64,000 nucleotides of DNA from positions 89,091-153,090 of the forward strand of contig NZ_VJXQ01000006.1 in NCBI RefSeq assembly GCF_007655485.1, given 5' to 3'. Below are positions 8,581-20,070 of the stretch, piece by piece. How positions within the stretch are numbered: position 1 is the first letter of the stretch; the number at the start of each line of letters is the position of its first letter. Source of the DNA: Halobellus captivus. GTDB lineage: Archaea > Halobacteriota > Halobacteria > Halobacteriales > Haloferacaceae. Below the pieces are notes generated by a model. That model searched no databases. It worked only from the letters and a program-made list of their open reading frames with translations, and was not told where the DNA came from. The translations under genes were made by a program, and so were the position numbers.

Positions 8581-8651
8581 TGCGCCAGCCGGGAATTGAA
8601 CCCGGGCTAGTGGCTTGGGAAGCCACTGTCCTACCACTGGACCACTGGCGC
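8581..8651 (-). tRNA. tRNA-Gly (anticodon CCC)
   Basis: A complete 71-nt cloverleaf on the minus strand: acceptor GCGCCAG pairing with CTGGCGC plus discriminator A, an anticodon stem GTGGC/GCCAC around loop TTCCCAA, and a T-arm GGGTTCAATTCCC. The CCA end is not encoded. No intron is visible. Confidence 0.96.
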
Positions 8652-8858: not shown

Positions 8859-9422
8859 TCAGGAGTCGAGTCGGTAGAAGAGCGCCTCGAAATCCTCACC
8901 GTCGAGTTCGGCCAGGTGGGATTCCGACTGCTGTCGCAGCGTCTCGATTTCGGCTTCGAGCCGCTGATACCGCTCATCGGCGTCGAGTTGGAACTGTGGC
9001 TTTTCGGCCATCAGCGCCTCCCGCTTCGAGAGCTTCGAGAAGAACGTTTGGAGCGTATCCGTGTAGTCGGATCGACGGAGCAACCGATCGATGACGTCTT
9101 TGAGCGCCGTCTCGCCGACGGGCTTCGTGAGGTAGGCGTCGAACCCCAGTTCGAGGATGTCGAAGTCGGGGTCGACCGCGGTGATCATCGCCACGCTGCA
9201 GTCCGTCCCCCGATTTCGAATCTGCTCTAGGACCTCGTCGCCGGAGACGCCCGGCATCCGCCGGTCCAGGAGGACGACGTCGACCGTCTCGTCGAACTGT
9301 TCGAGCGCGCTGGGACCGTCGTGGGCCGTTTCGACGGTGTACTCGTCCCGCAACCACGACGCGTACAACTCCGCGAGGTCCGGCTCGTCGTCGACGACGA
9401 GGACGTGGGGATTCGCGCTCAT
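8859..9422 (-). CDS. HalX-type response regulator
   Basis: A 187-residue protein started at ATG 9422 (MSANPHVLVVDDEPDLAELY); a start at 9443 would add seven residues. The receiver domain has acidic pocket D11/D12, phospho-acceptor D53 (LLDRRMPG) and K100 (YLTKP). The C-terminal 65 residues are the HalX helical domain (LSKREALMAEKPQFQLDADE, then a coiled coil), a haloarchaeal output module of unknown mechanism. No histidine kinase lies beside it, so it is an orphan. It sits at the edge of the surface/signalling block. Confidence 0.92.
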   Translation of the reverse strand: MSANPHVLVVDDEPDLAELYASWLRDEYTVETAHDGPSALEQFDETVDVVLLDRRMPGVSGDEVLEQIRNRGTDCSVAMITAVDPDFDILELGFDAYLTKPVGETALKDVIDRLLRRSDYTDTLQTFFSKLSKREALMAEKPQFQLDADERYQRLEAEIETLRQQSESHLAELDGEDFEALFYRLDS

Positions 9423-9539
9423 ACTGACGGGTGATCGCCACATCGTTAGTTCGTCGAAGTGATAAGTTTACTCCCTCCCGCGGACTCGAATGGAGGCGAT
9501 CGTATCAAGATTTATTATTCGACTCTGTCAGTACAGTGT

Positions 9540-10397
9540 ATGACACACGACGAGGAGGACTCGTCATCCACAGACGACGCTTCGTCCTCGTCACTCGGTG
9601 AACTGGCCGATCAGTTGGACGACACTAACCAGTTATCTGATGCTTCTGGCGACTGGCGGTCGCTGTCCGAACTCGTCAACTCGATCGAACAGCGCCGTGG
9701 CGACGCGGAACCGACGGCGGATCTCGACGATCGCGACCTGGGCCGGTGGGATTTCGTGGCTCGCGAGGAGTCCGGCGAAGGCGACTCCGCGGTCGATCCG
9801 AAAACCGAGGCGCTTCTCGAACTGACCGGCGGCGCATCGAACATCCTGCTCAGCGGTCCCGGCGACTGCCCCGCCGAGCAGAACTTTTGTTCGCGGCTGA
9901 TGGAACCGCGAGTTGACGACCCCGTGAACCTCTTGGTGGTCACGATTTCGGACACCCCAAGTCAGCGGCTCTCGGTCCTCGAAAACTACCTCGAAAGCCC
10001 CGTCAACGACACCGTCGTCGTCGACGTGCGCACGTACAACCGCGAATCGAGTTACGAGGAGTACGACGGGCCAGTCGACATTCACACCGTCTCGAACGCA
10101 CAGGACCTTCGACGGCTCGGGATCGTGATCAGTAAGGTCCTCACCGAGTGGGAGGACCTGTCGGATCCGATCACGATGTGCGTTCACTCGCTGTCGGATC
10201 TGCTCGAACTGAACGAGGACCACCAGCGGGTGTTCCGGTTTCTGCACGTGCTCCGCGGACGCGTCCAGTCCGCTGACGTGCGCGCTCACTACCACTTCGA
10301 CCCGGAGCGGCACGACGACCAGGCCGTCCGAACGTTCAGCTCGCTGTTCGATACGGTGATTCAGTTCGACGAGAACGGTTCGATAGCGCTCGGTTAG
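9540..10397 (+). CDS. DUF7504 family (RecA-like, HTR-like) protein
   Basis: A 285-residue protein from ATG 9540. The first 80 residues are Ser/Asp-rich and disordered. The rest matches the haloarchaeal DUF7504 fold: NILLSGPGDCPAEQNFCSRL, LLVVTISDTPSQRL and MCVHSLSDLLELNEDHQRVF, followed by a His-rich stretch HYHFDPERHDDQ. This resembles a degenerate RecA/KaiC-like core without a clear Walker A lysine. Family members are often encoded near signalling genes; the activity is unknown. Its stop codon overlaps the stop of the convergent coiled-coil gene by four bases. Confidence 0.8.
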   Translation: MTHDEEDSSSTDDASSSSLGELADQLDDTNQLSDASGDWRSLSELVNSIEQRRGDAEPTADLDDRDLGRWDFVAREESGEGDSAVDPKTEALLELTGGASNILLSGPGDCPAEQNFCSRLMEPRVDDPVNLLVVTISDTPSQRLSVLENYLESPVNDTVVVDVRTYNRESSYEEYDGPVDIHTVSNAQDLRRLGIVISKVLTEWEDLSDPITMCVHSLSDLLELNEDHQRVFRFLHVLRGRVQSADVRAHYHFDPERHDDQAVRTFSSLFDTVIQFDENGSIALG

Positions 10398-11815
10398 CGT
10401 CCTTCCTTCTGTTCGAGATCATCGAGATCGCCGAAGGGTGAAGTCGCACTCGACGACGTATCCGTGTTCGAGTCCGGTTCGTTCGCGCTCGACGACGATT
10501 CGTTCGTCTCGCCGTCTTCGAACTCTGCCGAACCGAACTCGAACGGGGTCGTAGATTCCGACGAGTCGTCGTCTCGATCGCCCGCAGATCTCCGCGATAG
10601 CCCGTCGGTTTCGTGCTCGGCGCTCGACGGGTGCTGTCCGCGGGTGTTACGTTCACTGCCGTGCGAATCGCTTTCAGCCACGGGAATATCTCGTTCAGTG
10701 TCGCGTCTATCAGTCGGTGCGCTCGATTGCGTGCGCTCCGGCTGACGCTGTGAAGGCGCTTCTCGCGGCGACTGTTGCGGCTTCGATACCTGCGCTTCGC
10801 CTCCACGTGGTGATCCCACCGCCGCGTCCCGTCCGGAAGTCTCCGTGTCGGTGGTGACGACGGCGTCAGACAGGAACAGCCACTTCTCCCGCTTTTCGAC
10901 GCCCGACAGGGAGTTCTCACAGTTCGGGCAGTACGGCCGGGACAGCAAGTCGAGGTCGATGTCGGACGAACAGGACTCACACTCGGCCTCGTGGACGCCC
11001 AGTGCCGCCGCGTCGCGTTTGATCGACTGGAGGGTGTCGCGCTCCCACTGAAGGTCCGAGAGCGCCTCTTCGTAGCGCGATTCCGCGCTCGAAAGGTCCG
11101 ATTCCAAGTCGTCCGTCTGCGTGACGAGGTACGTGAGAATCGTCTCGAGATTGCCGAATTCGTCGTCCATCCACGCCCTGGTCTGTTTCTGCTCTGTCGC
11201 CAGATCGTCCTGTTCAGACGCGAGCGCCTCGTGCTTGTGGTCGAACTCCGATTCGAGCGAGTCGACGCGTTGTGTGAGCGAATCGTACTGCCCGGACAGC
11301 GACTGCCGCGTCGCGTCGACCTCGTTGCCGATCTCGTCGAGTTCCGCTTCGATCTCGGTCAATCGACCCGCGATCGCCTCTTTCACGCCGTCTAAGGACT
11401 GACCGCGCTCGGCTTCCGCCTCGATGTCCGCCTGCAACTCGTCGACCCGGTCGCGGAGCGTTTCGAGCTGGTCGCTCCGGCCCTCGTCGATCTCTGAGGA
11501 GTGTTGACGATCCCCCTCCTGTCCCTCGCGTGAGGGAGGGCTCGGCCGGTCGGTACTCGATCGATCAACGCTCGGTCCCCGACCACTACCGACGTCATTT
11601 CGGTCACCATCGACGGGGGACTCTCCGACCGGTGGAGGACCGTTCCCCGACTCGTCGAGTAGTTGCATCAGCTCGTTTAACGTCCAATACGACGACACGA
11701 GCCGCTCGAAGAGCTCCTCCCGTGAGATGCCCTGATTCGCGGCGTGTTGGTCGAGCCACTCCTCGAACGACGTCGTGGGAGCGCTTCCTCCGCGATCTGA
11801 GAAATCGTTAGGCAT
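10394..11815 (-). CDS. long coiled-coil protein with a zinc ribbon
   Basis: A 473-residue acidic protein when started at ATG 11815 (MPNDFSDRGGSAPTTSFEEW). The N-terminus has a small helical segment (LFERLVSSYWTLNELMQLL). A Ser/Asp linker leads to about 170 residues of coiled coil (roughly 115-285, heptads such as LETLRDRVDELQADIEAEAE). A zinc ribbon follows with CxxC pairs CESCSS and CPNCENS about 20 residues apart, then KREKWLFLSDAVV. The last 150 residues are low-complexity. I recognise no named family. The order resembles a scaffold or cytoskeletal adaptor. It is convergent with DUF7504 and divergent from DUF5305. Confidence 0.78.
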   Translation of the reverse strand: MPNDFSDRGGSAPTTSFEEWLDQHAANQGISREELFERLVSSYWTLNELMQLLDESGNGPPPVGESPVDGDRNDVGSGRGPSVDRSSTDRPSPPSREGQEGDRQHSSEIDEGRSDQLETLRDRVDELQADIEAEAERGQSLDGVKEAIAGRLTEIEAELDEIGNEVDATRQSLSGQYDSLTQRVDSLESEFDHKHEALASEQDDLATEQKQTRAWMDDEFGNLETILTYLVTQTDDLESDLSSAESRYEEALSDLQWERDTLQSIKRDAAALGVHEAECESCSSDIDLDLLSRPYCPNCENSLSGVEKREKWLFLSDAVVTTDTETSGRDAAVGSPRGGEAQVSKPQQSPREAPSQRQPERTQSSAPTDRRDTERDIPVAESDSHGSERNTRGQHPSSAEHETDGLSRRSAGDRDDDSSESTTPFEFGSAEFEDGETNESSSSANEPDSNTDTSSSATSPFGDLDDLEQKEGR

Positions 11816-11937
11816 CTCGAAATCCGTAATTAACACGTGTAAGTTCGGTGAGGACAAAAGTTTTGTTACCGTTACTACCATACGCGACGTGATGACTGTC
11901 GTCTATCGGTGTGCCGTCGCTGTCGGGGGCCTTCCAT

Positions 11938-12960
11938 ATGGCGTTTGAGCACCGGGTCAAACTGTTCATCAGCGAGAACAACCGGGCGGTCGTCGCCGCC
12001 CTTCTCCTCTGCGGCGTGCTGTGCCTCCTCGCCGCCGGGTACGTCTTCAGCACACCGACGACACAGACGGTCGTCGAACAGACGGACAGGCAGACGTTCG
12101 ACGCCGAAGTACACCCGAGCGCTCTCGTGACCCGTCCGACAGCCCTCTACGAACAGGGTGAGCGACTGGAGAACCGATCGGTGTATTTCCTCTCTGCGTC
12201 CCCCTCGCTGACCTTGCAGGCCAACACTAGCGTCCCCGACGACGAGCCCGTCGCGGTGGATACGCAACTGCAACTCGAGACGCTCGGTACGCGGAACGGA
12301 CAGCCGTTCTACCGGTCTACGCGCACGCTCATCGAAACCGAGCAGACCGCTTCTGACGGACGGGTGAGCGCCACCGAGACGGTCAACGTCTCCGCGGTCC
12401 GCCAAGAGCTGGCAGTTGTTCAGGAGGAGGTGCAAGATACGGGGCAGTTCCGGCTCCGTCTCCTGTTAGACGTCGCCTACCGCAGCGAGGCGTACGAGGG
12501 ATCGCTCAGCGCGAGTGCCCCGTTCGTCGTCAGCGACCAGTCGTACTACCTCGACGGAACCCTCGAAGCCACGGAGACCGAGTCGACGCCGGTCGAGCGA
12601 CAGATCACCCAACCACCGAGCCCGGCCGAATACGGCGGACTCGCGGTCATTGGTCTCCTCCTGTTCGGCCTCGCCGCGGCGACTGTCCGAATCGACGATC
12701 GGGTCGATACCGAGGAACTCCGGACCCAGATCGTCCACGATCAGCACGCCGAGTGGATCTCGCGCGGGCAGTTCCCGACCGATTCCCAGAAGCAGTACAT
12801 CTCGATTCTCACGCTGGAAGACCTCGTCGACGTCGCGATCGATACGAACCGACGCGTCATCCACGACCCGCAGATCGACGCCTACGCGGTGATCGACAGC
12901 ACCGAGATCTACTATTACGCCTTAGCGGACGTGCAGGCCGACGAGTGGCTCGACATCTAG
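11938..12960 (+). CDS. DUF5305 family membrane-anchored protein
   Basis: A 340-residue protein started at ATG 11938 (MAFEHRVKLFISENNRAVVA). A signal-anchor helix lies at about residues 17-36 (VVAALLLCGVLCLLAAGYVF). An extracellular beta-rich domain of about 180 residues follows, with Thr-rich strands and paired Tyr. A second helix (GGLAVIGLLLFGLAAATV) leads to a cytoplasmic tail of about 90 residues containing FPTDSQKQYISILTLEDLVD. I recognise DUF5305, which in haloarchaea is often encoded beside an S26B signal peptidase, as here (13769-14917). A role in export or assembly of the nearby TasA-like proteins is inferred from context. Confidence 0.85.
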   Translation: MAFEHRVKLFISENNRAVVAALLLCGVLCLLAAGYVFSTPTTQTVVEQTDRQTFDAEVHPSALVTRPTALYEQGERLENRSVYFLSASPSLTLQANTSVPDDEPVAVDTQLQLETLGTRNGQPFYRSTRTLIETEQTASDGRVSATETVNVSAVRQELAVVQEEVQDTGQFRLRLLLDVAYRSEAYEGSLSASAPFVVSDQSYYLDGTLEATETESTPVERQITQPPSPAEYGGLAVIGLLLFGLAAATVRIDDRVDTEELRTQIVHDQHAEWISRGQFPTDSQKQYISILTLEDLVDVAIDTNRRVIHDPQIDAYAVIDSTEIYYYALADVQADEWLDI

Positions 12961-13040
12961 TGCGACGACCCGAGTCCCCACCCGTCCCGAAGGTACAAGG
13001 CGGTCCGAACCGGTCTTGCTGACGTCCACGGCTCACCGCT

Positions 13041-13730
13041 ATGAACCGCTCGCTCTGGTATCTCGGCCTGTTGGTCATCGCCGCGGGGATCACGTTCACC
13101 GCGGTCCCGACCGGATTCGGGACGATGCTCGGCGACGGTTCGAGCCCCTTTCAGACCCCAGATCGCTCACAGGGTCCGATCACGCTCGTCGGAACGGGGA
13201 ACGAGATCACGCGTGGCGTATCGCCTTCCACCGCCTCGTCGATCTCTCTCGCCTCGTCGCCCGCGTCGTCATCTTCGGCGTCGTCGACGGCGACCTCGTC
13301 GACCCGCCGAGACGCTGAAACCGCAGCGAACCGCTCCGAAACGGTCGTAGCGGCACTCGTCAACCGGGGCGACGCGGCCGCCAACGTAACGTACGAGGCA
13401 CGTGTCGACAGCGATGCGATCGAACTTCGCACCGCGAGCGACGAGATCACGGTGCCCCGAGGCGGACAACACCTCCTGTTCGCCACATGTGCGGCTTCGG
13501 ATGGGGACGCGGGAACAGCGACCCTGACCGTCACCATCGTCGAAGCGCATGTCGGCGACGCGACTGTCACCGACCGCGACCTCAGTGCGGAACTCTCCTT
13601 CGAGTGTACGGGGACAAACACGGAAACGAGGGACACATCGGCGACGGTCGAAGAACCCGCTACGACAGTTGTCGAATACGTCGAAACCGGCGGCGTTCGA
13701 TCGTCGAACATATCCGATCCCCTACGATAG
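13041..13730 (+). CDS. exported protein sharing the head domain of the repeat protein at 18493
   Basis: A 229-residue protein with an N-terminal hydrophobic signal (WYLGLLVIAAGITFTAVPTG), a Ser/Ala-rich low-complexity stretch (residues about 58-90), then a beta domain. The domain aligns by eye with the 525-residue protein at 18493-20070: ETVVAALVNRGDAAANVTYE against NSVAVAELVNNLDGAMTIEF; GGQHLLFATC against GGRHPIYAAC; GTATLTVTIVEA against GTATLQIDVIEA. The closing Cys is in SFEC against EYDC. It ends after this domain and lacks the repeats. It sits between DUF5305 and the signal peptidase, which it converges with. Function unknown; probably a surface protein. Confidence 0.75.
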   Translation: MNRSLWYLGLLVIAAGITFTAVPTGFGTMLGDGSSPFQTPDRSQGPITLVGTGNEITRGVSPSTASSISLASSPASSSSASSTATSSTRRDAETAANRSETVVAALVNRGDAAANVTYEARVDSDAIELRTASDEITVPRGGQHLLFATCAASDGDAGTATLTVTIVEAHVGDATVTDRDLSAELSFECTGTNTETRDTSATVEEPATTVVEYVETGGVRSSNISDPLR

Positions 13731-13768
13731 GCTCGCGCTCTTCGTCAGAACACCGCCGTTGGAGGGAA

Positions 13769-14917
13769 TCAGAACAACCGCCGCTTGAGCTGCTCGATCA
13801 CCGTGATATTTCGACCCGTCGAGCGCATCCTGATAGGGCCGAACCCGACGGCGATTAGACCGCTCGTGACGGCGGTGACCAGCAGCACCAGATCGATGAC
13901 GAACACCGCGACGATCGGGTGAACGGCGTGAAGGGCCAGGATGATCGATCGCGGGAGAATAGGGAGGTACCGCCACTCGGAGATGCTGCGCGTGTACGCC
14001 CCGGTCGTATCGGGTGCCCGTATCTGCAGCGTCGTCGTCGCTTCGGAACGTCCGGGTATGAGGAACGTCGACTGCGAGACTGTGAGGCTGGGACTCCGCG
14101 GTTCGATCACCGTCAACACCGGGATGATGCCGTCGTTGGCGACGCGGTACTCGACGGTGGCGTCCTCGCCCACGCCGATGACGAGCGGGTTCTCGTTCGG
14201 CGACTCGGAGCTGACGATGTCGAACGACGTCGTCCCCGACGGGATCATCATACTCGCCGTCGCCGGTGCGAGGACGACCAACGAGAGGACGATCAAGAAC
14301 GTGGAGGTCTTGATGTAGTTCGAGCGCCGCCGACTCCGTCGGCTCTCCGGCCGGTTCCCGCCGACGGCGTCGACGACGAAGCCGATCGCGATGATCCCGA
14401 GCCCGACCACGACGAGCGATTGAGCAGACCCACCACCGCCGAGGACTGCCCCGATTCCGACCGCGCTCCACGCGCTCTGGAGGATCCCTTGGAATCCGGT
14501 GACCGTCGTTCCCAACCCGGGAATGACGACCACCTGCCCGTTGAACTGCATCGCCTCGGAGACGATCTGTCCTTCGGTGACCGGCGGCTCCGCGCCCTCC
14601 TGATCGGTGAACGGATTCGCGTCACCGCGGGTGATATACCCATCCGCTGTCTCGCCGACGACGCGGTGCGTCGTGAGCCCGCCGCCCTGCAACTCCTCGG
14701 CGACGAACACGACCACGTCGCCCTGTTCCGGCGGTCCGGTGAGCGCCGAGGGGATTGCCACGAACCCGTCGCCGGGCTCCATCGTGGGGGCCATACTCCC
14801 GGTCTCGACGTAGCCGAGGAGGACGGGCTGTCCCGCCGCCTGCCCGAACAACATCGCGGCGACGGCGAGCACGAGTAGAATGACCGCTCCGTTCGCCACG
14901 GCCGTCGAGAGCTTCAC
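13769..14917 (-). CDS. signal peptidase I, archaeal S26B (Sec11/SipW type), with C-terminal extension
   Basis: A 382-residue membrane protease that removes signal peptides on the outer side of the membrane. After a first helix (residues 8-25) comes the catalytic Ser41 in ETGSMAPTMEPGD. His84 (LTTHRVVGE) takes the place of the bacterial general-base lysine, and an Asp follows at 99 (YITRGDAN): the Ser-His-Asp pattern of the Sec11/SipW branch. Two more helices surround residues 140-185. An unusual extension of about 180 residues contains an extracellular beta domain (VEYRVANDGIIPVLTVIEPR) and two C-terminal helices. The extension and the DUF1102-like neighbours suggest a dedicated protease for this locus rather than the general housekeeping enzyme. 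Confidence 0.88.
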   Translation of the reverse strand: MKLSTAVANGAVILLVLAVAAMLFGQAAGQPVLLGYVETGSMAPTMEPGDGFVAIPSALTGPPEQGDVVVFVAEELQGGGLTTHRVVGETADGYITRGDANPFTDQEGAEPPVTEGQIVSEAMQFNGQVVVIPGLGTTVTGFQGILQSAWSAVGIGAVLGGGGSAQSLVVVGLGIIAIGFVVDAVGGNRPESRRSRRRSNYIKTSTFLIVLSLVVLAPATASMMIPSGTTSFDIVSSESPNENPLVIGVGEDATVEYRVANDGIIPVLTVIEPRSPSLTVSQSTFLIPGRSEATTTLQIRAPDTTGAYTRSISEWRYLPILPRSIILALHAVHPIVAVFVIDLVLLVTAVTSGLIAVGFGPIRMRSTGRNITVIEQLKRRLF

Positions 14918-15006
14918 GGGCGACGTAGAACAGCGATCGATTTAACGCTTAATGCGCTTGCCGTTCGACTGGGCCGGATTCGCGCTCTCACCCCTCGCTC
15001 GCGATG

Positions 15007-15369
15007 CTACGTCGTCGTCAACACCCGATCGATCGCCGCGAGTAACTCCGCTTTCGAGTAGGGCTTGATGAGATACTCGTCGGCACCCGCGTCCGTCGCC
15101 TGCGTTCGGGCGTCGTCGCCGACCGCGACCGTGCTCACGATGACCGCGGTCGACGGGTTCGCGGCAGTGATTTCGGCGGTCGCGCTGATCCCGTCGCCGC
15201 GCTTCAGACTGAGGTCCATCACCACGACGTCCGGCGAGTATTCGTCAGCGATTTCGACGGCCTCGTCTGCGGTCTCCGCGGTTCCGACGACCGAGTGGTG
15301 GTCCCGGAGGTACCGACGGAGCAGCGTCGTCTGCATCGGAATATCTTCGACGAGGAGGATGTCTGCCAT
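15007..15369 (-). CDS. single-domain response regulator (CheY-like receiver)
   Basis: A 120-residue stand-alone receiver: E8/D9 acidic pair (LLVEDIPM), phospho-acceptor D52 (VVVMDLSLKRGDG), T/S switch region (IVSTVAV) and K102 (YLIKPYSK). It lacks an output domain, so it must act by protein contact. No kinase is adjacent. It lies between the signal peptidase and the TasA-like genes, and is transcribed away from the latter. Confidence 0.92.
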   Translation of the reverse strand: MADILLVEDIPMQTTLLRRYLRDHHSVVGTAETADEAVEIADEYSPDVVVMDLSLKRGDGISATAEITAANPSTAVIVSTVAVGDDARTQATDAGADEYLIKPYSKAELLAAIDRVLTTT

Positions 15370-15710
15370 CTTGGTGACGGAGATGCGGAATCGGTCTCAA
15401 CGCGTCCGACGCGTCGTCGAGTCTCGCTCGAATGATCGGACTGTGAGCCGTTGTCGATGGTAGTGCGCTTTCCGACTTGAACGTACCGGCGTTCTGTCGA
15501 TTGAGCACCGTGTGAACGGATTCCGATTTCGCCTCAGTCGGCGACAACATCGATTAAACGACCGATTAATGGTGAATTCAGCGCCTACAAGCCCGGCTTT
15601 CGATTCTAATGCTCCAATTGAACTCGCTTCAAGCACCCGAATACAAAGTGGGTAGGGTGTTCCTATACTGGTAACGACACGGACCATCCCCGTGTTAGGA
15701 GCATACTACT
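15370..15710. other. 341-nt intergenic promoter region ahead of the TasA-like genes
   Basis: No ORF with coding character is seen. The region is visibly AT-richer than most of the window and contains a close repeat CGATTAA-N5-CGATTAA near 15550. The last 50 nt hold the promoter and leader described separately at 15663-15701. Confidence 0.5.
15663..15701 (+). promoter_or_regulatory. TATA-like element, hairpin and Shine-Dalgarno before the first TasA-like gene
   Basis: A TATA-like CTATACT near 15663-15669 is followed by an inverted repeat CACGG-N7-CCGTG (15678-15694) and then AGGAG (15697-15701), nine bases before the ATG at 15711. A Shine-Dalgarno this clear is unusual next to the leaderless promoters elsewhere in the window, and the hairpin could shield it. 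The assignment is by eye. Confidence 0.4.
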
Positions 15711-16256
15711 ATGGCAATCAGCAGACGAAACATCCTGATCGGACTGGGCGCATTGGTCGGCGGCGGCGGCGCACTCGTGAGCACGGGCGCGTTTACGACA
15801 GTGAGTGCGGAGCGCTCGGTGAGTGTTGAGACGTCCGGTGACGCAAGCGCGTTCTTGACTATTACCGGAACCAGTCAGTACGTTAACGACGACAGTGGTA
15901 GTGGAACACTGACGATTGATCTTGGTGCGCCCGGGCAAGCGGGTTTCAACGAGAACGCAATTACAACGCTCAGTGGCGTGTTCGAGATCGCAAATAACGC
16001 CGCTGATGGCTCGGATGCAGAGGTTAGTCTTTCGACTACCGGAACGAGCAATGATCCCGATACGGGATCAGGGACAGTTTCCGTCGAGTTGGATGATGCT
16101 GAAGTGACCTTCTATCTCGGTGGAATCGACTCTGCCGGGACACAGACACTTTCTACTGGCGACGCCGCCGTAGCGGTTGATGTCGAGGTCGATACAACCG
16201 GCTCCTACTCGGGTGGATCCAGTGGAAATCTGACAATTGTCGCGAACGAACCGTAA
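15711..16256 (+). CDS. exported TasA/camelysin-like (DUF1102-type) protein 1
   Basis: A 181-residue exported protein. The signal begins with a twin Arg (SRRNILIGLGALVGGGGA) and ends at STGAFTTVS, a box shared in form with the two downstream proteins. The mature start ERSVSVETSGDASAFLTI matches the head of the repeat protein at 18493 (DRPVDVSVADDSAAFVAV). The core is a beta-sandwich-like stretch with NENAITTLSGVFEIANNAAD, the N-rich turn typical of TasA/camelysin proteins. It is Thr/Ser/Gly/Asp-rich, with no Cys in the mature part. Codon use is AT-richer than neighbours. Probably a fibre or matrix subunit cleaved by the S26B peptidase; this role is inferred. Confidence 0.75.
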   Translation: MAISRRNILIGLGALVGGGGALVSTGAFTTVSAERSVSVETSGDASAFLTITGTSQYVNDDSGSGTLTIDLGAPGQAGFNENAITTLSGVFEIANNAADGSDAEVSLSTTGTSNDPDTGSGTVSVELDDAEVTFYLGGIDSAGTQTLSTGDAAVAVDVEVDTTGSYSGGSSGNLTIVANEP

Positions 16257-16283
16257 CACTGCTGTCTGACCACCATTCCATAT

Positions 16284-17075
16284 ATGAAACGACGACAAGT
16301 CATCACGGCAATCGGAACGCTCTCACTCGGTGCGGGAACGGCTCTCGGCACGGGTGCGTTCGACGCCACCTCATCAAACTCGAGTGGTGGACTTTCGGTT
16401 GTTACGCAGACCGAAAACGCGGACATCAACATCGTCCCGGGCTGGGATGAGTTCACCACCAGTAATCTGGGAGATGACCTATACGTCCCTGTTGATGGAG
16501 AGGACCCACCAGAGTACATCGCTTCGGACGGTACGATTAGCTACGAAAAGCTCTCCCGCGAGGACCTGCCGGTCGCAGTAGTCCAGAATTCCGGGTACGG
16601 GATGGCGACCGTTCAAATCGCAGTCGAAGTCGGCCGTCCGGAGACCAAGGTCGACTTCGCGAGCCTGTTAGCGGTGAACAACAACGACTCGCAAGATTAC
16701 GAACTCGGGTTTACGTATTATCAGGGGTACGGAACACCAGTTGACGACGAGGAAATCTCCGCCGGTGTTGTCAATGATACGTTCATATTTGAGGCGGCGG
16801 ACGGTACTCGGATCTCCCCGCTAAGTTCGGATTCCGAAGGAGCGGAACCTGCCAACCTGATGACTATCGACGCCGGAACGACTGAACCCGTCTCACTGAG
16901 CGTAAATACGGACCAATCGGACCTCACTGAGCAATACGCCGACGTTTACGGCAATAACTATGATGGGGCAGGGAGTTTCGTCTCCGATGGCGACGGGGCC
17001 ACGACGGAGGAACTCGTCTCCGAGGTCACCGCCGTTGCGAACGAGCTCACATCGTTCTCGGAAACGGCCGAATGA
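16284..17075 (+). CDS. exported TasA-like/DUF1102-type protein 2
   Basis: A 263-residue exported protein 27 nt after the previous gene, so probably cotranscribed. The signal is KRRQVITAIGTLSLGAGTAL ending at GTGAFDATS, the same processing-box form as its neighbours. The mature protein is acidic and rich in Asn/Asp/Tyr, with FASLLAVNNNDSQDYELGFT resembling the F-x-I-x-N-N-G strand of this family and alternating strands typical of a beta sandwich (ATVQIAVEVGRPETKVDF). No Cys. It likely belongs to DUF1102 (I am moderately sure). A structural surface role is inferred. Confidence 0.72.
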   Translation: MKRRQVITAIGTLSLGAGTALGTGAFDATSSNSSGGLSVVTQTENADINIVPGWDEFTTSNLGDDLYVPVDGEDPPEYIASDGTISYEKLSREDLPVAVVQNSGYGMATVQIAVEVGRPETKVDFASLLAVNNNDSQDYELGFTYYQGYGTPVDDEEISAGVVNDTFIFEAADGTRISPLSSDSEGAEPANLMTIDAGTTEPVSLSVNTDQSDLTEQYADVYGNNYDGAGSFVSDGDGATTEELVSEVTAVANELTSFSETAE

Positions 17076-17152
17076 AACCGTCTTTCCGTCACAGTCTGGT
17101 CTCTCTCTGATCTGGAAAACACCTCAACGACGAGCGCCCGAATTACTACCCA

Positions 17153-17761
17153 ATGCTCACCCGCCGCCAACTCGTCGCTGGCCTCGGAAGCGCCTTCGTC
17201 AGCGCGGGCGTCGTCAGTTCGACGGCGGCGTTCACCGCGACCTCCTCCAGTTCCGAGGCCTCGTTCGTCGTGGTCTACCCGGACCTGATCGAACTCACGC
17301 CCGTCAACGACCCGCCGATTCACGTCGAAGCGAACGAGAGCGGCTACGTCACGGCGATCACGCCCGGCGGCGACACGGGACTGAATCAGCGCGCGATCAC
17401 GCGCTTCGAGGACATCGTCGCGATCACCAACGCCGGAACGGTCGACCTCACGGGGCTGTACTTCGAGTTCGAAACCGATAGCGATGTCCTCGACGCGGAA
17501 ACGCTCGCGGAGGTCGAGGCTGCGTTGTCGGTGACGGCTGGCGGCCAGACACTCCGAACGAGCGGCGAATCCGGCGACGATCTGCTCGACGTGAGCGCGC
17601 ACGGGGCGGCCGATGACAGCGTGCTCACGCCCGGCGAGTCGATTCCGTTCGGCGTGCAGGTCGACCTCATCGCCGATCACGGCGCGTCGACGCGTACGGA
17701 CCTCCCCGCTCCCGGCGACCACGACGTGACGCTTCGGCTGGTCGTCGAGGGCGACGAGTGA
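17153..17761 (+). CDS. exported TasA-like/DUF1102-type protein 3
   Basis: A 202-residue exported protein, 77 nt downstream of protein 2. The signal TRRQLVAGLGSAFVSAGVV ends at STAAFTATSSSS. The core motif GLNQRAITRFEDIVAITNAG parallels GFNENAITTLSGVFEIANNA of protein 1, and is followed by VDLTGLYFEFET, the strand after the turn. Base composition returns to high GC, unlike the two genes before it. Predicted to be an extracellular subunit, or an anchor or minor component, of the same assembly; no direct evidence. Confidence 0.75.
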   Translation: MLTRRQLVAGLGSAFVSAGVVSSTAAFTATSSSSEASFVVVYPDLIELTPVNDPPIHVEANESGYVTAITPGGDTGLNQRAITRFEDIVAITNAGTVDLTGLYFEFETDSDVLDAETLAEVEAALSVTAGGQTLRTSGESGDDLLDVSAHGAADDSVLTPGESIPFGVQVDLIADHGASTRTDLPAPGDHDVTLRLVVEGDE

Positions 17762-17848
17762 GTCGCCGCACGCGCTGGCCGGTCGGTTCCGACACCGTCG
17801 CGGAATGGAGAGACTATTTGTAGGTGAAGTAATAACTTCCCCCGACGA

Positions 17849-18433
17849 ATGGGGCAGCGAGCCGAGATGGAGTCGACCGACGCGGCGTCCGCTTCCGATT
17901 TCGGATCGACCGAGGAGACGCTTCACAAAGACGAGATCTTCGAGTTGATGGGTAACCACCGTCGACGCTACGCGATCCACTACTGTAAACGGACCACGGA
18001 TCCCGTCGAACTATCCGACCTCGCAGAGCAGATCGCCGCGTGGGAGCAGGGCAAGGCGATCGCGGAGATCACCTCCGCGGAGCGCAAGACCGTCTACACG
18101 TCACTCCAGCAGACACACCTCCCGCGGCTCGATCGAGCGGGCGTGATCGAGTTCGACGGCAACGAGATCACGCTGACTGATCGGGTCGATCGACTCGATA
18201 TCTACCTCGACATCGTCCCGGAGAGCTCGATCCCGTGGAGCGTCTACTACCTCGGACTCTCCGCGATCGGGGCGCTTGTCCTTCTCGCGCTCTGGGTCGA
18301 CTTCCTGCCCACTGGTCCGCCCCCCGTGTTGCTGTATCCGACGCTCATCGTGGCCGTGTTCGCAGTCTCTGCGACATATCACGTGTACGTGAATCGCGAA
18401 AACCGGTTCGAAAACCTCGAACGTCCTCCGTAA
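17849..18433 (+). CDS. membrane-bound DUF7344 winged-helix protein
   Basis: A 194-residue protein: an N-terminal DUF7344 wHTH-like domain at residues 30-115 (EIFELMGNHRRRYAIHYCKR, LSDLAEQIAAWEQG, VIEFDGNEITLTD), then two transmembrane helices (VYYLGLSAIGALVLLALWVD and LLYPTLIVAVFAVSATYHVY). Such proteins may act as membrane-tethered regulators. An alternative start is ATG 17867. It follows the TasA-like genes by 87 nt on the same strand and could report on or regulate the locus. Confidence 0.85.
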   Translation: MGQRAEMESTDAASASDFGSTEETLHKDEIFELMGNHRRRYAIHYCKRTTDPVELSDLAEQIAAWEQGKAIAEITSAERKTVYTSLQQTHLPRLDRAGVIEFDGNEITLTDRVDRLDIYLDIVPESSIPWSVYYLGLSAIGALVLLALWVDFLPTGPPPVLLYPTLIVAVFAVSATYHVYVNRENRFENLERPP

Positions 18434-18492
18434 CGGTGCTCGTCGAGGAGCCACCGCCGCGCTGGACGGAGTCGATTCCGCTCGGAGCCGAC

Positions 18493-20070
18493 TTACCCTG
18501 CCTGCACGCTCCCTCGCGCTGGCGTCCCCTCGACGGTCACGCCGCTCGGATCGTAGGTGAGCGTCCCGTCCCGATCGTCGAGCGTCGCTCTATCGACCGA
18601 CAGGGTCGCCGACTCGACGCCGAGGGCTACCTCGGCCTGTCCGTTTGAGGAGGCGACGCGCGCCGCGTCGAGCAGCACGTCGCCCGAGGCGCTGAACGCG
18701 ATTCCGACGTTGGTCTCGAAGGCCGCGCCGCTCGCGAGGATGTCCGCGGCCGATTCGATCTCCAACTCCCCGTTCGAGCTCGTCACCGACGCCTCGCCTA
18801 ACTGGAGCGTCCCCGACTCGGCGGTCAACCCGATCCCGACGTCCGTCGAGATCGATGCGCCAGCGGCCTGGATACTCCCGCCTGCCAGATCGATCTCACC
18901 GTTCGTCGAGTCCACGGTGGCGTCGGTCAGCGTGAGCTCCCCTCCGTCTGCGGCGAGCGAGATCTCAGTATTCGTCGAAATCGCCGCCTTCGACGCGTCG
19001 ATGTTCGATCCTCCGATATCGATCGCGCCGTTTTGCGACTCGATCGTCGCCTCCGAGAGGCCCACCGATCCCGAGTCCGCGTCGAGCGAGATGGCCTCGT
19101 TCGTCCGCACGGTCGTCCGCGGCGCGTCGATCGAGCGCCCCGAGAGCTCGATCTCGCCGTTGCTCGATTCGATTGTCGAATCGCCGATCGACAGCGCTCC
19201 CGATCCCGCGTTCACGGAGATCTCCTCGTTCGTCGCGACTGTCGCGTCGGATGCGGTGACCTCGCTTCCCGAGAGTTCGATCGCGCCGTTTTGCGACTCG
19301 ATCGTCGACCCCGACATCGACAGCGTCCCTCCGTCGGCTTCCAGCGTGACTTCGCGGTTGCTCGAAAGACTCCCGTCGCCGACCGCGATCGACCGGGCGG
19401 CGATGTCGACCTCTCGGTTCCCGAACTGGACGCGCCTGCCGTCGGCCGCGATGACGAGGGCCGCGCTGTCGTCGTCGAACTCGGCCAGTTCGTTTCGGGT
19501 GACGGTCCGCTCTCCCTCGTCGTACGCGTGGTTTCCGTTCTCGTCGACGTAGGCGACAGCCCCACCCGGTGGACCGCTGGGACCGCCGGGTCCGCCCCCA
19601 CCGCCCTTCCCGGGGCAGTCGTACTCAACGAGCGTCTCCAGGGTCGCGTCCGTGACCGTCGCGGACCCGCCCCGTGCCTCGATCACGTCGATCTGGAGCG
19701 TCGCCGTCCCGCTGCCGCCGTTCGGTGGACTGCAGGCGGCGTAAATGGGATGACGGCCGCCCTGTTGGACTGTCGCGGTGTCGGAGGGGGTTTCGACCGC
19801 AACCGTACTCGAATCGATGCTCGCCTCGAACTCGATCGTCATCGCGCCGTCGAGGTTGTTCACCAGCTCTGCGACGGCGACGCTGTTTTCGGGTTGTGAA
19901 ACTGGGGTATTCGTGTTCGAGACCGCCACGAACGCCGCGCTGTCGTCCGCGACCGAAACGTCGACCGGGCGGTCGCCCGCGATGGTGCTGAAGCTCGCGG
20001 TCGGCACAATCGTCAACATCGCACCGACCAGCACGAACGCCAGCCCCACGTACAGCCACGCTCGACGCAT
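18493..20070 (-). CDS. exported repeat protein: TasA-like head, Ca-loop-like segment, six 43-residue beta repeats
   Basis: A 525-residue secreted protein. Residues 1-26 are a signal; the head (27-154) shows ASFSTIAGDRPVDVSVADDS, close to the mature start of the TasA-like protein 1, and the Cys pair shared with the 13041 protein. A Gly/Pro linker (155-170, KGGGGGPGGPSGPPGG) leads to a dockerin-like loop DENGNHAYDEGE (about 176-187). Residues 239-497 are six tandem units of 43-44 residues with the core E-S-x-N-G-x-I-E/D-L/I and T-N at each end; unit 6 is degenerate. The pattern predicts a beta helix or solenoid, as in adhesins. It is convergent with the DUF7344 gene. An adhesin or cell-surface role is inferred. 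Confidence 0.8.
   Translation of the reverse strand: MRRAWLYVGLAFVLVGAMLTIVPTASFSTIAGDRPVDVSVADDSAAFVAVSNTNTPVSQPENSVAVAELVNNLDGAMTIEFEASIDSSTVAVETPSDTATVQQGGRHPIYAACSPPNGGSGTATLQIDVIEARGGSATVTDATLETLVEYDCPGKGGGGGPGGPSGPPGGAVAYVDENGNHAYDEGERTVTRNELAEFDDDSAALVIAADGRRVQFGNREVDIAARSIAVGDGSLSSNREVTLEADGGTLSMSGSTIESQNGAIELSGSEVTASDATVATNEEISVNAGSGALSIGDSTIESSNGEIELSGRSIDAPRTTVRTNEAISLDADSGSVGLSEATIESQNGAIDIGGSNIDASKAAISTNTEISLAADGGELTLTDATVDSTNGEIDLAGGSIQAAGASISTDVGIGLTAESGTLQLGEASVTSSNGELEIESAADILASGAAFETNVGIAFSASGDVLLDAARVASSNGQAEVALGVESATLSVDRATLDDRDGTLTYDPSGVTVEGTPARGSVQAG
18580..19356 (-). repeat. six tandem 129-bp coding repeats
   Basis: Protein units R239-N281, E282-N324, E325-N367, T368-D410, V411-N454 (44 residues) and a degenerate V455-L497. 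The common core is IESxNGxIxL with a terminal STN. At the DNA level the units stay partly similar, for example the phrase GCCGTTTTGCGACTCGATCG recurs near 19030 and 19289. Confidence 0.85.

Follow-up and report, generated by a model that had tools for sequence, protein, structure and literature searches.

A 64,000-nt stretch of the genome of Halobellus captivus (contig NZ_VJXQ01000006.1, positions 89,091-153,090 forward; genome size 3.35 Mb), which we call the window and within which all positions are given, carries a gene set that very probably makes a surface fimbria of the tafi type, divergent from the tafi known so far. Tafi are described, in a passage of PMC12687288 that cites Galeva et al. 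(2025, iScience 28:111793), as haloarchaeal fimbriae named after the twin-arginine translocation (Tat) pathway (Tat-fimbriae). An earlier note, made from the letters of this DNA, had proposed that 11938-20070 is a locus for haloarchaeal fibres or biofilm matrix and has its own dedicated S26B signal peptidase, on the pattern of TasA and SipW in Bacillus. The open reading frames that it listed are all where it placed them, and the proposal of a fibre locus with its own peptidase is supported; the nearest known system is tafi, as represented by the Protein Data Bank (PDB) entry 9p0a, which is a more specific assignment than TasA/SipW. We refer to each protein by the first position of its gene (Table 1).

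The evidence starts from homology to a solved pilin. The PDB entry 9p0a, entitled 'Structure of Natrinema sp. J7-2 Tafi pilus', matches the 15711 protein with E=1.3e-13, while phmmer searches of the PDB using the 17153, 18493 and peptidase proteins produced no usable match. The four exported proteins (15711, 16284, 17153 and 18493) have meaningful matches only in the NCBIfam families TafA, TafC and TafE, and TafE matches 33/33 members of the family. Profile comparison to the 15711 family gives a match at 97% for the 16284 protein and at 97.8% for the 17153 protein. The neighbourhood adds a second line of evidence. Natrinema altunense (loci L047 and L100) encodes a near-copy of the solved Tafi pilin (395 bits), about 1.4 kb from a peptidase that is 47% identical to the 13769 peptidase, with DUF5305 and DUF7344 genes nearby. 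In two genomes, TafA scores above its curated cut-off 3-5 kb from a relative of the same peptidase. It is because of this linkage, in N. altunense and in the two TafA genomes, that we consider the window locus and the experimentally known tafi to be of one kind.

The 15711, 16284 and 17153 proteins share a twin-arginine signal followed by a T-[GA]-A-F box, as the earlier note had described. In a six-frame translation of the window this combination occurs 3 times, only in these three proteins, when 0.05 occurrences are expected from shuffles. The twin-arginine signals (S-RR-NIL, K-RR-QVI and T-RR-QLV) are kept in all aligned orthologues. The N-x2-A-I-T motif attributed to two of the proteins is likewise confirmed, at 15948 and 17384 and nowhere else, with a shuffle expectation of 0.0. 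A further claim was that the 18493 repeat protein carries the same mature head as the 15711 protein. The two do align in register as F-x2-[VI]-x3-R-x-V-x-V-x4-D-x2-A-F, with a score above all of 20,000 shuffles. The likeness covers the signal box and about 21 first mature residues, with identical spacing; it does not extend to the globular head, for which the predicted domains differ. A BLASTP comparison of the two proteins without composition correction was unreliable and was discarded.

The mature N-terminal peptides of the three twin-arginine proteins are found at 15792-15863, 16359-16430 and 17231-17302. Two types of peptide can be distinguished, one in the 15711 and 18493 proteins (x-R-x-V-x-V), and one in the 16284 and 17153 proteins (F-x-A-T-S-S). 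The two types may reflect the order of the subunits.

The mature 15711 protein is modelled as a beta-sandwich (predicted local distance difference test, pLDDT, 80; predicted template modelling score, pTM, 0.74). Using VIA-align, the top match of this model is 7ueg, the Pyrobaculum bundling pilin (Z 8.3, root-mean-square deviation (rmsd) 3.2, 114 aligned), the second is 9p0a (Z 7.9, rmsd 3.1, 120 aligned), and FimA comes next with Z about 6. Fold prediction, which the earlier note had put forward as a check, agrees with it for the 15711 protein, whose model matches the bundling pilin and the Tafi pilin, and disagrees for the head of the 18493 protein, which is PapD-like and not of the subunit fold. 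TasA chains are not among the structural matches listed for the models.

The solved Tafi chain also suggests what the shared peptide does. The 9p0a chain has 188 residues, of which the last is residue 215; it must start, by our own reading, at residue 28, which is the Phe that follows TGA. The match of 9p0a to the monomer model of the 15711 protein begins by pairing 9p0a residue 46 (mature residue 19) with residue 19 of the model, and the first 18 residues of the solved chain are outside the matching part. Because the solved chain starts right after TGA and its first 18 residues are outside the monomer match, we interpret the shared N-terminal peptide as a donor strand. Self-complemented FimA chains match the model from residues 1-7, and the N-terminal strand of the monomer model sits in its own sandwich. 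This strand may fill its own groove in the monomer, and the groove of a neighbour in the fibre. For TasA, the exchange of the N-terminal strand between subunits has been shown (PMC9674648).

Several observations weigh against assigning the locus to tafi. All Taf scores are under the NCBIfam equivalog cut-offs (TafE 63 vs 155 bits, TafA 37 vs 190, TafC 42 vs 410). But the L047 near-copy of the solved pilin fails the Taf cut-offs too, and we therefore take them to mark one lineage, not to define tafi. The Foldseek TM-scores of the 15711 model are modest (0.4-0.47), its Foldseek E-values place FimA above 9p0a, and VIA-align warns that Z values of about 8 come close to background. The fold match is weak if taken alone, yet it is supported by the sequence homology to 9p0a, which is independent of it. 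Finally, cleavage, polymerisation and function in this organism are predictions from sequence and modelled structures. The exported proteins could be monomers, secreted or associated with the S-layer, which the peptidase merely processes and which form no filament. The filament is a prediction for Halobellus captivus, and the subunits may be able to fold unaided, as does the model that places the N-terminal strand in its own sandwich. Still, the 15711 protein is homologous to a pilin solved as a filament, and the conserved neighbourhood is common to both, for which reason we regard monomers as very unlikely.

The catalytic Ser, His and Asp of the signal peptidase, as identified in the earlier note, are invariant in 18 relatives. 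The archaeal signal peptidase model TIGR02228 scores 53 bits on it, above cut-off, whereas the SipW model reaches 24 bits (E=2e-5) when the equivalog cut-off is 190 bits. The strongest archaeal signal peptidase match in the genome is a separate third gene, at C1:101377 (112 bits), which is probably the housekeeping enzyme; besides that gene there is one peptidase per fibre locus. The 13769 peptidase is a dedicated enzyme, distinct from the housekeeping one. All relatives of this peptidase have a second half in which, by inspection, two membrane spans, one of them at the end, enclose an exported stretch of ~90 residues. This conserved half (residues about 190-382) extends beyond the coverage of the signal peptidase models.

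Could the locus be a true TasA/camelysin system, whose fibres form a biofilm matrix after processing by a SipW orthologue? The weak SipW score goes in that direction, as do matches of DUF1102 to 5/33 relatives, which are weak as well (best E=4e-5). The best structural match of the 15711 model is an archaeal bundling pilin, and these pili are relatives of TasA (PMC9674648). On the other hand, a profile search with DUF1102 and camelysin, also proposed in the earlier note, finds no match in the window proteins at E<=1, and the peptidase, besides being far under the SipW cut-off, carries an extra exported domain. The window subunits have Tat-type signals, and the signals of TasA are not of Tat type. 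We consider a true TasA system unlikely. Kinship with TasA/camelysin is retained as a remote kinship of the predicted fold, by way of the bundling pilin 7ueg and the weak DUF1102 matches among relatives, and not in the sequence of the window proteins. Since there is no DUF1102 or camelysin match, and the peptidase scores so far below the SipW cut-off, we can say that the tafi-type locus would work like TasA/SipW, but not that it is TasA/SipW.

The 18493 protein is of a different build. Its model (pLDDT 88.7), which starts at residue 43 and is without the first 16 mature residues, has a beta-sandwich head, a linker and a beta-solenoid of about 38-residue repeats. By VIA-align, the solenoid has its nearest matches among beta-helical enzymes and depolymerases (Z 18.6, 305 residues, rmsd 4.6), and the head among chaperone domains of the PapD type (FimC/SfaE/PapD; Z about 9, 97-100 residues). 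The protein is probably exported by the general secretory (Sec) pathway, because its orthologues do not keep the twin-arginine. The 13041 protein and the 18493 head are, as proposed before, paralogues (31% identity over 190 aa, E=1e-21). In one relative (G009, L041 4192-5774) the 18493 orthologue is split over two overlapping frames, the cause being either a true frameshift or an error of sequencing.

The PapD-like head suggests that the 18493 and 13041 proteins might be extracellular assembly chaperones, capping subunits through the shared peptide as TapA does for TasA. TapA is described, in the title of PMC10151520, as a strand-complementing chaperone in Bacillus. However, the PapD-like, MSP and ASH domains are all common Ig-like folds, and for that reason the match may be one of mere arrangement, as VIA-align itself warns; the first 16 mature residues are absent from the 18493 model; and a beta-solenoid of 350 residues better suits an adhesin. 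A chaperone role seems to us doubtful. The N-terminus of TapA resembles the TasA donor strand (PMC9674648). By combining the putative donor peptide with a different head, the 18493 protein fits, like TapA, the end of a filament (as tip adhesin, anchor or nucleator), and its model makes it a likely tip adhesin or anchor. A role as cap or base is possible for the 13041 protein, which consists of the head only.

How constant is the gene set? Counts were made in 60 full-length named loci around relatives of the 13769 peptidase. A TafE-like protein is present in 56/60, DUF5305 in 56/60 and DUF7344 in 54/60. The conserved core consists of the S26B peptidase, DUF5305 and the DUF7344 protein. This co-occurrence supports DUF5305 as a core partner of the peptidase, and the H. 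captivus genome has exactly two copies of it, one beside each fibre peptidase. By inspection, the DUF5305 protein has an exported domain flanked by two membrane spans. A literature search for DUF5305 found nothing. Halobellus clavatus has the window set as a whole (DUF7504, the coiled coil, DUF5305, the peptidase, three Taf-like proteins, DUF7344 and the repeat protein), and so have Haloferax profundi, marinum, prahovense, marisrubri and gibbonsii (L073-L079, of which the L074 contig breaks off inside the set). The control genome of Haloferax volcanii has no DUF5305, for which reason this species is probably without the locus.

Among the accessory genes, the DUF7504 neighbour is retained in loci of the Halobellus/Haloferax type and in the second locus of the same genome, and synteny places the coiled-coil gene next to DUF5305 in related loci. 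The CheY-like regulator is present as noted earlier. As a core component it was rejected: it is adjacent only in some Halobellus loci, and is a lineage-specific neighbour. The CheY query also matches an open reading frame adjoining DUF7504 in several relatives of the genus.

The second locus, paralogous and also of fimbria type, is found at C1:478000-497500 of the H. captivus genome (L011). Its machinery is the same, with a peptidase (43% identical), DUF5305, DUF7344, DUF7504 and the coiled coil, and its TafE-like proteins are without twin-arginine (Sec-type). Adjoining is a protein of 1336 residues that has PKD domains as well as four domains of the ASH/choice-of-anchor-D type. Three loci of this type were found (L011, L049 and L058), and their peptidases fall together in a supported group of six, of which they are not the only members. 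Among 188 classified subunit-like proteins, the twin-arginine is present in 171 and absent from 17; one of the 171, the L058 protein, is an artefact, since its RR is upstream of the start codon. Tentatively, and with rather less than even confidence, we propose that one duplicated peptidase/DUF5305 machine serves two fimbria systems, one with subunits exported folded (Tat) and the other with subunits exported unfolded (Sec), and that what the two have in common is the cleaved N-terminal donor strand, present also on proteins that are not pilins (the adhesin with PapD-like head and beta-solenoid), so that the donor peptide would be a portable tag by which a protein enters the fibre.

For the window locus we propose the following mechanism. 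The 15711, 16284 and 17153 subunits, given the signal motif observed in them, would be exported folded by Tat. The 13769 peptidase would then cut between the Ala and the Phe of T-[GA]-A-F and free the N-terminal peptide; the homologue's solved chain supports the cleavage site, and the enzyme is assigned by linkage. The freed peptide would be the donor strand that slots into a neighbouring subunit, as in TasA and in archaeal bundling pili, and for that reason polymerisation of the subunits would need no input of energy. The filament is most likely built mainly of the 15711 protein. Its ends would receive proteins that carry the same peptide, the 18493 protein as adhesin or anchor. DUF5305, which co-occurs so constantly, would be the membrane partner of the peptidase and probably aids export, processing or assembly. 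The DUF7344 protein is probably a local regulator, likely membrane-bound. The biological function would be adhesion or biofilm formation.

Table 1. Features of the fimbria-type locus and its neighbours, by position in the window.
Feature	Position	Strand	Evidence or context
HalX-type response regulator	8859-9443		between tRNA-Gly (8581-8651) and the DUF7504 gene
DUF7504 protein, accessory neighbour	9459..10397	+	PF24336 E=2.5e-38; synteny
Coiled-coil protein with zinc-ribbon-like CxxC pair, accessory neighbour	10394..11881	-	
DUF5305 membrane protein, core partner of the peptidase	11938..12960	+	PF17231 E=6.6e-46, above Pfam cut-off
Head-only paralogue of the 18493 protein, exported, without twin-arginine	13041..13730	+	
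S26B signal peptidase, C-terminal membrane-anchored exported beta domain	13769..14917	-	catalytic Ser41/His84/Asp99
CheY-like single-domain response regulator, accessory	15007..15369	-	PF00072 E=1e-25
Tat-exported fimbrial subunit, probably main pilin	15711..16256	+	TafE 63 bits, TafA 37 bits; 9p0a E=1.3e-13
Mature N-terminal peptide of the 15711 protein, putative donor strand	15792..15854	+	FTTVSAERSVSVETSGDASAF
Tat-exported Taf-family protein, minor subunit candidate	16284..17075	+	TafA E=3.5e-6, TafE E=8.6e-6, below cut-offs
Tat-exported Taf-family protein, minor subunit or adapter candidate	17153..17761	+	TafE E=6.9e-6
DUF7344 protein, winged-helix-like domain and C-terminal hydrophobic spans, core neighbour	17849..18433	+	PF24035 E=6.9e-29
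TafC-like exported protein with beta-solenoid repeats	18493..20070	-	TafC E=5.6e-11, below cut-off

Tafi have been described only recently, and this type of locus shows which genes travel together with them: an S26B peptidase with an exported tail, DUF5305 and DUF7344. It also places a divergent Halobellus/Haloferax version of tafi in Haloferax gibbonsii and relatives. Does the cleaved N-terminal peptide alone mark a protein for the fibre? The locus offers a test of this question, and the pair of loci raises another one, which is why related fibres use Tat at one locus and Sec at another.

Four known systems can be compared with this locus. Chaperone-usher pili resemble it in the FimA-like beta-sandwich of the 15711 subunit and the FimC/PapD-like fold of the 18493 head, but the window system has no usher and no outer membrane, and identities are about 10-18%; the likeness is probably convergent or very distant. 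The Pyrobaculum bundling pilin comes first among the structural matches to the predicted 15711 subunit, though at 11% identity and from a hyperthermophile, not a haloarchaeon. With TasA-TapA-SipW of Bacillus the likeness is one of logic: a dedicated S26B peptidase adjoins its fibre substrates, and the mature N-terminus would be a donor strand common to major and accessory proteins (PMC9674648). The window system differs in the Tat-type signals and the sequences of its proteins, which do not match TasA/camelysin, in the exported C-terminal domain added to its peptidase, and in the DUF5305 partner, which is absent from 14 control genomes. Tafi differ from it in gene order, and the window subunits stay below all the NCBIfam Taf cut-offs; the window locus has CheY, DUF7504 and coiled-coil neighbours, and its TafC-like protein is a predicted beta-solenoid with a PapD-like head. 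The likeness to tafi is in the pilin itself, which is homologous, in subunits with twin-arginine signals and the same signal box, and in the neighbours (S26B peptidase, DUF5305 and DUF7344) that the near-copy of the solved pilin has as well.

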